Positions 34,223-37,744 of a stretch of 37,744 nucleotides of DNA are shown piece after piece. The notes below the pieces were generated by a model. It was not told the origin of the DNA. It worked only from the letters and a program-made list of their open reading frames with translations, and searched no databases. The position numbers were made by a program, and so were the translations under genes. The stretch covers positions 1-37,744 of the forward strand of contig JAJFLJ010000276.1 in assembly GCA_021772755.1 (NCBI GenBank), in the 5' to 3' direction. Within the stretch, counting starts at the first letter, position 1; each line of letters begins with the position of its first letter. Source of the stretch: Candidatus Sumerlaeota bacterium (GTDB lineage: Bacteria; Sumerlaeota; Sumerlaeia; SLMS01; JAHLLQ01).

Positions 34223-34255
34223 CCGCCGGCCCGGAATCGTCGTCCGGGCCGGCGG
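34223..34255 (-). terminator. Strong intrinsic terminator after the SRPBCC gene
   Basis: CCGCCGGCCCGGA and TCCGGGCCGGCGG form a perfect 13-bp stem with a 7-nt loop, followed on the minus strand by TTTTCG. It lies 35 nt past the stop at 34291 and isolates the epimerase gene from upstream transcription. Confidence 0.85.
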
Positions 34256-34290: not shown

Positions 34291-34848
34291 TTATGCCGTC
34301 GGCGCGGCCGACTCGTGAATCGCGCGGATGCCGTTGAGGAACGTGTCCACCAGGCCCGTCACGCGCGCCTCCTGGCGGTCCGGCGCGCTGCCGGCCCGGT
34401 TCTCCGACTCCACGTCCCACACCAGCTCCGCCTTCCGATAGCCGCGGTCGGCCACCCGAATCGTCGCCGTCGTGATGGAATCGCGCAGCGGGCCCTCCAG
34501 GAAGCGGACCGTCACCGTACGAAGCGAGTCGTCCGTCTCCACGATCTCGACGTCCTGCGTCGAGCCGTTGTTCAGCCGGAGAACGCGAACGTTCCCGCCC
34601 TCCGCCGGCGACGTGCGAGAGGAAACGACGATTCCGCCGGACCACTGTTCCACCGTCTCGAAATCGCGCACCATCGCATAGACGTGGTCCGCCGATGCGT
34701 CGATCCCGACGCTTCGCTCCACGCGGATCGCCGTCGCGGGCGCCTTCTGCGCGGAGGCATCGGCTGCTGGTTCTTCGGCGCCCGGGGAAACCGTCGCGCC
34801 AAGGATGATCGTGCTCAGAATTGCGGGGAGAAACTTGCCGTACTTCAT
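34291..34848 (-). CDS. Secreted SRPBCC (START-like) domain protein
   Basis: The 185-aa product has a Sec signal (MKYGKFLPAILSTIILGATV then SPGA) and a mature SRPBCC fold. The domain opens RVERSVGIDASADHVYAMVR, followed by VEQWSGG, a form typical of polyketide cyclase/dehydrase-like proteins that bind a lipid or small hydrophobic ligand in a cavity. An exported version is less common than cytosolic ones. GGAG lies 8-9 nt before ATG. A palindrome similar to the one before tetR lies about 190 nt upstream, suggesting control by the adjacent TetR protein. Ligand unknown. Confidence 0.85.
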   Translation of the reverse strand: MKYGKFLPAILSTIILGATVSPGAEEPAADASAQKAPATAIRVERSVGIDASADHVYAMVRDFETVEQWSGGIVVSSRTSPAEGGNVRVLRLNNGSTQDVEIVETDDSLRTVTVRFLEGPLRDSITTATIRVADRGYRKAELVWDVESENRAGSAPDRQEARVTGLVDTFLNGIRAIHESAAPTA

Positions 34849-35036
34849 CGTTGGTACTCCGAATTATATGTGCGTAGGGGATTGGTCGGGGGTTGGGGGT
34901 TTGGAATTCCGTCTGGACGTTTGGGTCCTCTCCTCGGACGCACCCGGCTCCAAGGCGACTTGCATGCCGGAATTCGCCCTCCGGAACTGTATCCGGGCAA
35001 TTGCTCGCCAACTGTCCTGGCCGGGCGGCCCTGTTT

Positions 35037-35052
35037 CGGAACGATCGTTCAG
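35037..35052. promoter_or_regulatory. TetR operator-like palindrome, site 1
   Basis: CGGAACGATCGTTCAG contains the perfect 12-bp palindrome GAACGATCGTTC, extended outward by TTTC and GAAA. It lies between the tetR stop and the SRPBCC gene start and shares GAACG...CGTTCAG with site 2. Confidence 0.65.
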
Positions 35053-35076
35053 AAACGGCGGCAAGGAAAAGGCCCC

Positions 35077-35688
35077 CTACCCCCGCGCCGCCGCAGACCG
35101 CACCGCCAGCCCCGCCAGCGCCGTTTCCGCCACCTGCTCCAGCCGCACCCGGTCCTCCGGGTACGTCTGCGCGATCAGCGGCACGCTGAAGGACACCGCC
35201 ACCAGGTACCGCGCCAGCGACTCCGTCGGCGCCATCGACGCGATCGAGCCCACGCTCCGCGCGTTGCGGATCGCCACCGCGAACGCCTCCTCCAGCCGTC
35301 GGTGGAACGTCTGCGCCAGCTCCCGGATTTCCGCGTCCCGCGACGCCACCTCCGAAATGCTGTTGATCATCAGGCAGCCCCGCCGGCCCTTCGGCCCGCC
35401 AAAGTACTCCACCATCCCCGCGAAGTGCGCGCGGATGGCCGCCAGGCCGTCCTGGTTGGTGCGCAGCCGCGCCAGGGTGCTCTTCTCGAAGCCCTCCAGA
35501 TAGCGGTCCGCCGCCTTGCGAAACAGCGCGTGCTTGTCCCCGAAGAACTCGTACATCGTGAACCGGTTGATGCCCATCGCCTCCAGCAGATCGCTCACCC
35601 CGGCGGCTTCGTACCCTCTGGCCCAGAAGACCATCATGGCCTGGCGCAGAGCCTCGTCGGGATCGAACTTGCGGGGTCGGGGCGACAT
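35077..35688 (-). CDS. TetR/AcrR family transcriptional regulator
   Basis: The 203-aa protein has an N-terminal TetR helix-turn-helix (about residues 10-57: DEALRQAMMVFWARGYEAAG then VSDLLEAMGINRFTMYEFFG) and a helical ligand-binding C-domain with GRRGCLMINSISEVASRD, a form shared by YxaF/AcrR-like regulators of efflux or stress genes. These repressors bind short palindromes and release on ligand binding. Two similar palindromes lie on either side of the gene, one 37 nt upstream of its start, as expected for autoregulation. Possible targets are the SRPBCC gene and the divergent radical SAM unit. Confidence 0.93.
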   Translation of the reverse strand: MSPRPRKFDPDEALRQAMMVFWARGYEAAGVSDLLEAMGINRFTMYEFFGDKHALFRKAADRYLEGFEKSTLARLRTNQDGLAAIRAHFAGMVEYFGGPKGRRGCLMINSISEVASRDAEIRELAQTFHRRLEEAFAVAIRNARSVGSIASMAPTESLARYLVAVSFSVPLIAQTYPEDRVRLEQVAETALAGLAVRSAAARG

Positions 35689-35724
35689 GGCGGGGGAGCC
35701 TCGGAGTTGGGATCAAGCGCTTAT

Positions 35725-35740
35725 CTGAACGACCGTTCAG
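35725..35740. promoter_or_regulatory. TetR operator-like palindrome, site 2
   Basis: CTGAACGACCGTTCAG has 7-bp arms that match exactly around a two-base centre. It lies 37 nt upstream of tetR and 224 nt upstream of the divergent radical SAM gene, so it could control both. Confidence 0.72.
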
Positions 35741-35963
35741 AATCGCCCCATTCGGCCCCGAGAGTCAACTGCCGAATCCCGCCCCGCGACCGCCCTGCAA
35801 CGCCGCCGAGAATCCGGGGATGCGGTCGCGCAACGGGCGGGGCGGGCCAAACCGCAGCCCGGCGGAGGAGGTCGGGGTGGAGGAGACTTCGGGTTTCGGA
35901 TCGACAGCGGGGAGAGAATCCGCCAGTCTGTACCGTGACCGACGGGAACGGAGGCCGGGGCCT

Positions 35964-37157
35964 ATGGGAAGCGCGCATCAGGACGATTCGCCGGAACTGA
36001 CGGTGACGTTCCATCTCACGCACAATTGCAACATTCGCTGTTCGTACTGCTACACGGGCGAGAAGTTCGGGCGGGGCATGACGGACGAAACGGCGGACCA
36101 GGCGGTGGACTTTGCCCTGGCGCTGGTGCGCGACCGCGGGGTCTCCCAACTCAACGCCGTGTTCTTCGGCGGCGAGCCGCTGCTTCGCAAGGACCTGCTC
36201 CTTCGGATCGCGGACCGGCTGCTTGAGGAAGCGCCGGTCCCTGTCACCCTCAAGACGAGCACCAACGGGCTGCTGCTGACGGAAGAGGTCGTCGGCGAGT
36301 TGGTGGCGAGAGGGCTCTTCGTTTCCATCAGCATGGACGGCACACCGAAACAGCATGACCGCCAGCGGCGGGACATTCACGGCAGGGGAACCTCTTCGAG
36401 GCTGGGCGTCGTCGTCGACAGTCTCCTCCGGGAGATTCCCTCCGCACACGTCAACTGCGTCGTGACTCCGCAGTCGGCGGGGAGTCTCGACGAATCCGTC
36501 GCGTGGCTTTCCGACAGGGGGTTCATGTTCATTTCGACGTCGCTCGACTACGGCGACCCGGGCTGGACGCGGGCGGACCTGACGCGGCTCGCCGCGTCCT
36601 ACGGGCGCCTTGCGAAATGGTACGAGCGCCGGACGCGGGAAGGCCGAAAGTTCTACCTGAGCGGATTCGACAACCGGATACGGTCGCGAACGTGGGGACC
36701 GGTCGGCGACGGAGACCGCTGCGCACCCGGAGAGTCCAGCTTCTCCATCGCCCCATCCGGCCGCATCTATCCGTGCATCCAGTTCGTGGGCGAGGACAAC
36801 GACCACCGCTACGCGATCGGCGACGTGCGAACGGGGCTTGCGCGGGACGCGAAGACCCGCGTGCCCGGCTGCTCGCGCGACGAATGCCGGGGATGCGCGC
36901 TGCTGGACCGCTGCGGTTCGGGATGCGCCTGCGTCAACATGCAGGCGCACGGCGATCCCGCGCTCGTCAGCGCGCTCGTCTGCGAGCACGAGCGCCTGCT
37001 GATGCCCATCGTCGATCGAATGGCGAACCGACTTTGGAGGAAGCGAAACGCCGCGTTTCTCCGCAAGCACTACGACTCCGAGTTCCCGCTGGTCAATTTC
37101 GTCGAAGAGGTCATTCTGCGCGAAGCCATGGCCGGACCGACAGGAGGTGCCGCATGA
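35964..37157 (+). CDS. Radical SAM/SPASM maturase
   Basis: The 397-aa enzyme has the CxxxCxxC cluster motif at Cys22, Cys26 and Cys29 (HNCNIRCSYCYTGEKF), GGEP at 69-72, and a TIM-barrel core to about 240. A SPASM domain follows with Cys at 253, 271, 303, 308, 311, 317, 321, 323 and 340 (DRCGSGCACVNMQAHGD), enough for two auxiliary iron-sulfur clusters. Enzymes of this build (AlbA, anSME and RiPP maturases) modify peptide or protein side chains. No separate RRE domain is seen. ATG at 35964 is preceded by GGAGG, and the 48-residue longer track start is unlikely. Its stop overlaps the next ATG, so the downstream protein is the likely substrate. The family within SPASM proteins is not identified. 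Confidence 0.92.
   Translation: MGSAHQDDSPELTVTFHLTHNCNIRCSYCYTGEKFGRGMTDETADQAVDFALALVRDRGVSQLNAVFFGGEPLLRKDLLLRIADRLLEEAPVPVTLKTSTNGLLLTEEVVGELVARGLFVSISMDGTPKQHDRQRRDIHGRGTSSRLGVVVDSLLREIPSAHVNCVVTPQSAGSLDESVAWLSDRGFMFISTSLDYGDPGWTRADLTRLAASYGRLAKWYERRTREGRKFYLSGFDNRIRSRTWGPVGDGDRCAPGESSFSIAPSGRIYPCIQFVGEDNDHRYAIGDVRTGLARDAKTRVPGCSRDECRGCALLDRCGSGCACVNMQAHGDPALVSALVCEHERLLMPIVDRMANRLWRKRNAAFLRKHYDSEFPLVNFVEEVILREAMAGPTGGAA
37142..37148 (+). promoter_or_regulatory. Strong Shine-Dalgarno for the substrate-like gene
   Basis: AGGAGGT lies 5 nt before the ATG at 37154, inside the maturase gene. It is the best ribosome binding site in the window and suggests that the downstream product is made in excess over the enzyme. 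Confidence 0.85.
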
Positions 37158-37744
37158 CCGCTCCGATGAAGGTGCGTCCGCTCCGTTCGTATACCGTTCC
37201 GAAGTACCCTTCGGCGGCGGACCCGAACCCGCTGGACGAAACGCCCGGCGTGCCGCACGCCACCTCCCGCGAGGTTCTTGCGGCGCTCTCGGCGCTGGGA
37301 ATCGCTTCGACGATGGGGTGCGGATCGCAGGGCGGGGCGCCGGACAGCGCAGGTCAAAACCCCTTTTCCACGAGCTCGGTCACGAAAAGGTCCTTTGAGT
37401 ATTCCGAGAACGGTTCAGGGAGACAGGCGCCGCCGCCGCCCATGTTCACCAGTTACGGAACGGGAATGTTCGGGACGGGATCGTGGCTGGCACCCTCCAG
37501 AAAATCCGGAAACATCGAGCGGTATCGCGTGGAGCAGGCACTCGACGCGATCATGAGGGATGCGGGTTTCGAGCCGGAGAAACGGGTGGCGGTGGAGATC
37601 GACGGCGTGGAATTCGTCGCGCGGGGATTCGACGCGAAGCACGGAATCGGCTACGCCTTCTATCACGGCGACACCGGCACCATCGCGATTCCGAAGAACG
37701 CGACGAGAAGCATGGAGGAACAGGTCCTGCGCATCGAGGCCCAC
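37154..37744 (+). CDS. Candidate radical SAM substrate / RiPP-like protein (open at window end)
   Basis: This reading frame of 197 codons has no stop before the window ends and is missing from the ORF track. Its start is fixed by AGGAGGT and by an ATGA overlap with the maturase gene. The product has four parts. The first is a basic leader-like N-terminus (MKVRPLRSYTVPKYP, residues 5-19). Next is a hydrophobic segment (REVLAALSALGIASTMGCG, 39-57) that could be a helix or a poor lipobox. Then comes a Ser/Gly/Pro-rich stretch with the near-repeat SYGTGMFGTGSW (100-111). Last is a folded-looking C-part with VEIDGVEFVARGFDAKHGIG. No enzyme motif is visible. The pairing suggests it is modified by the maturase; that is inference. 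Confidence 0.8.
   Translation, partial: MTAPMKVRPLRSYTVPKYPSAADPNPLDETPGVPHATSREVLAALSALGIASTMGCGSQGGAPDSAGQNPFSTSSVTKRSFEYSENGSGRQAPPPPMFTSYGTGMFGTGSWLAPSRKSGNIERYRVEQALDAIMRDAGFEPEKRVAVEIDGVEFVARGFDAKHGIGYAFYHGDTGTIAIPKNATRSMEEQVLRIEAH

Follow-up and report, generated by a model that had tools for sequence, protein, structure and literature searches.

The window analysed here, a 37,744-nt stretch of a Candidatus Sumerlaeota genome (G000; 3.96 Mb, 312 contigs, 81% complete), carries towards one end a tetR gene in tandem with a gene for an SRPBCC protein and divergent from a radical SAM maturase gene. The features of this locus are the following:

34223..34255, minus strand: terminator-like stem 3' of the SRPBCC gene, 13 pairs (12 G-C), then TTTT
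34291..34848, minus strand: SRPBCC / Polyketide_cyc2 protein, 185 aa, probable signal peptide (PF10604, E 2e-12)
35033..35056: predicted operator O2, GTTTCGGAACGATCGTTCAGAAAC, 24 bp, near-perfect palindrome (11/12 pairs)
35077..35688, minus strand: tetR, 203 aa, Pfam matches PF00440 and PF16925 (TetR_C_13)
35721..35744: predicted operator O1, 24-mer TTATCTGAACGACCGTTCAGAATC, perfect arms inside 35724-35741
35763..35768, minus strand: TTGACT, -35-like box of tetR
35964..37157, plus strand: radical SAM/SPASM peptide maturase; PapB is the closest NCBIfam model, with a score under its cut-off

The window protein belongs to the TetR family, both Pfam matches lying above the gathering scores. Among named genomes, MAGs of Candidatus Sumerlaeota provide its closest matches. 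Its recognition region contains NRF, with F43, and its Cys105 lies in a GCLM motif that is kept in all four TetR proteins of the family in a four-genome alignment. The best NCBIfam model is AcuR, the acrylate utilisation regulator, but membership was rejected given the score (37 bits, where the cut-off is 247) and the neighbouring genes, which encode SRPBCC and radical SAM proteins rather than acrylate functions. A terminator scan found no terminator-like stem between tetR and the SRPBCC gene. In the region 35964-37744, the maturase has the PapB ranthipeptide model as its nearest; its best homologue shares 43% identity and comes from another member of the class (L029). The presumed partner of the maturase, an open reading frame from 37154, has no Pfam match and runs past the contig end.

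A sequence-only reading of this DNA had described two matching palindromes around tetR, at 35039-35050 (O2) and 35725-35740 (O1). Direct checks of the sequence found GAACGATCGTTC and CTGAACGACCGTTCAG at exactly these coordinates, and both palindromes are even longer than claimed, O1 comprising TCTGAACGACCGTTCAGA (35724-35741), 18 bp with 8/8 pairs around a 2-nt centre. The exact core GAACGNNCGTTC occurs twice in the window, in O1 and O2, and nowhere else in it; 0.13 copies are expected in dinucleotide shuffles of the window, and 0 of 100 shuffles reached two. O2 lies 20 bp past the tetR stop and, as had been stated, upstream of the SRPBCC gene, 188 bp ahead of its start. O1 likewise lies where it had been placed, in the gap between tetR and the radical SAM unit, but 36 bp separate it from the tetR start and 223 bp from the start of the maturase gene.

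Five genomes of the family were sampled (G000-G004), four of them with this TetR, which was called absent when no match was found at E 1e-10. The sole congener compared, G001 (Ca. Sumerlaeia MAG IP29b_bin.95), keeps the tandem arrangement, with a TetR 83% identical to that of the window and, next to it, an SRPBCC protein 64% identical. In this genome, CAGAATGAGCGTTCAG stands 29 bp ahead of tetR, at the O1 position, and the counterpart of O2, CGGAATGACCATTCCG, stands about 30 bp past the tetR stop and 196 bp ahead of the SRPBCC start. The places of both sites are kept despite base changes, and in O2 the two arms are altered together (GAACG..CGTTC to GAATG..CATTC). In G003 and G004, where TetR is 42-43% identical to the window protein, a palindromic site was again found ahead of tetR in each, and the SRPBCC gene was not found. 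Conservation near orthologous tetR genes, proposed as a check of the palindromes, was thus observed in G001, G003 and G004. An MFS transporter gene lies divergent from tetR in G004 (L023:9448-11569), and the operator faces this gene as well. On the tetR strand, each of the four TetR-bearing genomes has a TTGAC[TAG] box that ends 11-23 nt ahead of the operator. With 36 bp between it and the tetR start, and with such a box closely preceding the site in all four, O1 is best read as the operator of tetR itself, and judging by its position it would cover the -10/start region of this gene.

A further site is found on another contig of G000 (C58), where CTGAACGATCGTTCAG lies about 205 bp ahead of pdhA (E1-alpha), in an operon with the order pdhA-pdhB-E2. 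The distance is equal in G001 (C98), with CTGAACGATCGTTCTG about 205 bp ahead of the orthologous E1-alpha gene. E1-alpha passes the pyruvate dehydrogenase equivalog model TIGR03182 (446 against a cut-off of 393.85 bits) and E1-beta passes PRK11892 (486 against 454 bits), whereas E2 scores 417.5 bits with its best model, TIGR01349, just under the cut-off of 445. The E1-alpha and E1-beta scores point to a pyruvate dehydrogenase operon, a name to be used with some caution considering that the mycobacterial bkdABC genes were once annotated as pdhABC (PMC3920632). We scanned the 400 bp ahead of E1-alpha with a 24-position matrix trained on six tetR/SRPBCC sites only, which avoids circularity. For the four genomes that carry the TetR, the best scores were 34.8, 28.5, 22.9 and 24.9, reached by 0 of 1000 local shuffles; ten genomes without detected TetR, among them G002, a family member that is 97% complete, scored no higher than 8.1. 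The order- and class-level relatives without detected TetR have no pdhA site. The site is therefore present in 4/4 TetR-bearing genomes and 0/10 of those without detected TetR, in a family sample whose two genera provide few independent co-occurrence events. No site was found before the E1-alpha-like genes of ten distant TetR-bearing genomes (best score 11.1), so that control of pdh seems confined to the Sumerlaeota family. The three-target local regulon of the sequence-only reading stands in part: tetR and the SRPBCC gene are retained, the maturase pair is not, and the predicted third target, pdh, lies on another contig, so that the regulon would not be purely local.

The approximately 205 nt between operator and pdhA (L006:4783-4988, minus strand; L062:4094-4299, plus strand) contain blocks that both species have kept, CCAGTTCGCGGTTGCA and ACTCCCCGGGAGCC, and may form a long leader; the comparison with Rfam gave no match at the two pdh loci. 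The isochorismatase-type gene divergent from pdhA on C58 was rejected as a target, as the site tracks pdhA and the nearest relative of this gene in the congener is 36% identical and on another contig.

Genome-wide, the pattern CNGAAYGNNCRTTCNG has 11 matches in G000, 6 in G001 and about one on average in the other relatives, which served as the control after a reversed-pattern control was dropped for its bias from stop-rich words. Most extra matches in G000 are intragenic, with strong operator matches inside a secreted-protein gene (C40:18814-18829, L056), a beta-lactamase-like gene (C185:9041-9056, L008) and a lipB-like gene (C74:23095-23110, L057), which may be chance matches or genuine intragenic sites. 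A second model that also recovered intragenic matches had the pdh sites in its training set and is hence not independent. Matches lying inside open reading frames were discarded as targets (C40, C74 (lipB), C136, C185 and C287 of G000; C57, C170 and C260 of G001). Two orthologous pairs of intragenic matches are explained by conserved protein sequence, in a membrane protein (G000:C254 and G001:C151) and in a DinB-like polymerase (G003:C64 and G004:C79). An intergenic match in G000 (C242:3370-3385, L009) lies about 17 bp ahead of a metallophosphoesterase start; this gene was rejected as well, the site being absent before its orthologues in G001-G004.

Beyond the family, 79 TetR homologues from many phyla were scanned over the 150 bp ahead of tetR and the stretch just past it, with each threshold letting through 5% of shuffles. 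High-scoring sites were found upstream in 21/79, downstream in 18/79 and on both sides in 14/79, for 5% expected each. Judged by these predicted sites, the arrangement seen in the window, with two sites around tetR, recurs within this TetR subfamily. An operator before tetR and another just past its stop are found, for instance, in L072, L077, L079, L101, L114, L121 and L136, from Acidobacteria, Phycisphaerales and Alphaproteobacteria. Which gene follows the second site differs among homologues; in Sumerlaeia, it is the SRPBCC gene. By eye, we take this gene to encode a short-chain dehydrogenase in L072, L076, L077 and L079, an AhpD-like protein in L101, L114, L121 and L080, and a thioredoxin in L085 and L096. 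The outermost operator pair also differs with the protein: C..G is found with 6/7 NRF proteins and 2/16 others (Fisher p 0.002, uncorrected for kinship), and proteins with A, G or S at the NRx position mostly have T..A. The predicted operators of the window TetR, an NRF protein, carry C..G, including all four pdhA sites. The residue at NRx thus appears to track the outer operator base.

Taken together, control by this TetR of its own gene is well supported by the O1 position kept in the congener and by the pairs before and after tetR in distant homologues, the conserved palindrome in the tetR promoter region of G000, G001, G003, G004 and these homologues being that of an autoregulator. Control of the SRPBCC gene is equally well supported, by the O2 position kept in G001 and the recurrence of the pair, so that one TetR would control both genes, as had been proposed. 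That the palindromes are a product of chance is hardly conceivable: short GATC-centred palindromes are also found within genes of the same genome, but the shuffle counts disagree with chance, G001 keeps both positions although the bases differ, and the two-site layout returns in distant TetR homologues. O2 could alternatively be an RNA hairpin, an attenuator or processing signal between tetR and the SRPBCC gene rather than a DNA operator. Such a hairpin would be transcribed if the two genes form one unit, and the joint change of both arms in G001 would also be expected from it; nevertheless, this is very unlikely, given that no T run follows O2, that the terminator scan was negative there and that the same sequence returns ahead of tetR and pdhA. 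It is almost certain, from their sequence and position, that both palindromes serve the neighbouring TetR as binding sites.

The choice of targets is where other readings have to be weighed. TetR at O1 might also control the divergent radical SAM maturase-substrate pair, as the sequence-only reading had it, since O1 sits in the gap between tetR and the maturase gene and BkaR shows that TetR proteins can act on both sides of a divergent gap (PMC3920632). This is nevertheless unlikely, as O1 occupies the promoter position of tetR, far nearer to its start than to that of the maturase, and tetR of G001 has no adjoining radical SAM gene, the best radical SAM match of that genome being 32% identical and on a different contig. 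On the corresponding side, G001 has what we take to be a dCTP deaminase gene and then a nitrilase gene, while the gene divergent from tetR is pilin-like in G003 and encodes an MFS transporter in G004. Upstream of six other radical SAM homologues no operator was found (best matrix score 7.7). The arrangement of tetR, operator and radical SAM pair is not conserved, and we judge the maturase to lie outside the TetR regulon. For pdhA, a different regulator, perhaps a TetR paralogue, could use the site, the likeness reflecting a site type shared by the subfamily. Operators within one TetR subfamily do resemble each other across phyla, and the incompleteness of G000 leaves room for a paralogue, but a single such TetR is found at E 1e-10 in each of G000, G003 and G004, the site is present exactly where a window-type TetR is and absent from G002 and the order- and class-level relatives, and the outer C..G pair associated with F43 is found in all four pdhA sites, which makes a second regulator improbable. 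The regulon of the window TetR would therefore probably comprise tetR, the small exported SRPBCC protein and pyruvate dehydrogenase, and not the radical SAM genes.

By analogy, CifR and BkaR would be the nearest working parallels. CifR of Pseudomonas aeruginosa and Cfl1R/Cfl2R of Burkholderia are TetR-like and epoxide-responsive, and CifR is the nearest named solved relative of the window TetR by sequence (E 1e-17; PDB relatives CifR and 2i10). As in the window, the regulator gene adjoins its target, and a GC of CifR aligns with Cys105. The Burkholderia cflR and cfl genes are co-directional (PMC8244358), like tetR and the SRPBCC gene, and the title of a reference cited there mentions two CifR binding sites. 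In contrast, the targets of these regulators are epoxide hydrolases, whereas here the tetR neighbour is SRPBCC (PF10604) and the distant target the pdh operon; the recognition regions (IRPPS in CifR, INRFT in the window TetR) differ and the sequences are distant. BkaR (Rv2506/MSMEG_4718), a mycobacterial TetR repressor, is autoregulated through a 24-bp palindrome with a 16-bp core and has few targets, including a 2-oxo-acid dehydrogenase operon (PMC3920632), all of which recalls the proposed circuit; the window operator, however, bears no relation to the BkaR motif, GTTA(N)T(N4)A(N)TAAC. Moreover, its operon encodes a branched-chain 2-oxo-acid dehydrogenase and adjoins bkaR, whereas the Sumerlaeota E1-alpha and E1-beta pass pyruvate dehydrogenase models and lie elsewhere. 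In Proteobacteria, the pyruvate dehydrogenase operon has a dedicated transcriptional regulator, PdhR, of the GntR family (PMC5343134). Its role resembles that proposed for the TetR, but it belongs to another protein family. PaaR (TTHA0973) of Thermus thermophilus is a TetR family member. This repressor of the phenylacetate regulon, with the operator consensus AACnAACGTTnGTT (PMC6651687), shares CNAACG..CGTTNG elements with the window operators.

In the circuit that we propose, a TetR dimer would bind O1, over the tetR promoter, and so autoregulate tetR; it would also bind O2, in front of the SRPBCC gene. That gene may be transcribed from a promoter in the gap behind tetR, by read-through from tetR, or both. 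The same TetR would bind the site upstream of pdhA-pdhB-E2, and we regard it as quite likely that it controls itself, the SRPBCC gene and pdh in this way, as an ordinary autoregulator with an unusual distant target. By analogy with its relatives, TetR probably represses its targets and would be released by a small molecule or reactive compound at the C-terminal domain; repression rather than activation is suggested by the family and by the operator position in the tetR promoter region, and is a more tentative reading for pdh. A thiol-reactive signal acting through Cys105 is possible, though speculative.

From the association of the NRx residue with the outer base, and from the pair of sites before and after tetR, a simple predictive rule suggests itself for the targets that this TetR subfamily has in other phyla. 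A TetR from an uncultured phylum now has a defined operator and three predicted targets, which can be tested. One of them is a central metabolic enzyme, for which the literature searched provided no TetR regulator, BkaR being the only related case. We lean, by a small margin, towards the view that in this Sumerlaeota family a TetR, rather than a PdhR of the GntR type, has pyruvate dehydrogenase under its direct control, along with an exported SRPBCC protein. If so, carbon entry into acetyl-CoA would be set by a small compound, either hydrophobic or reactive.
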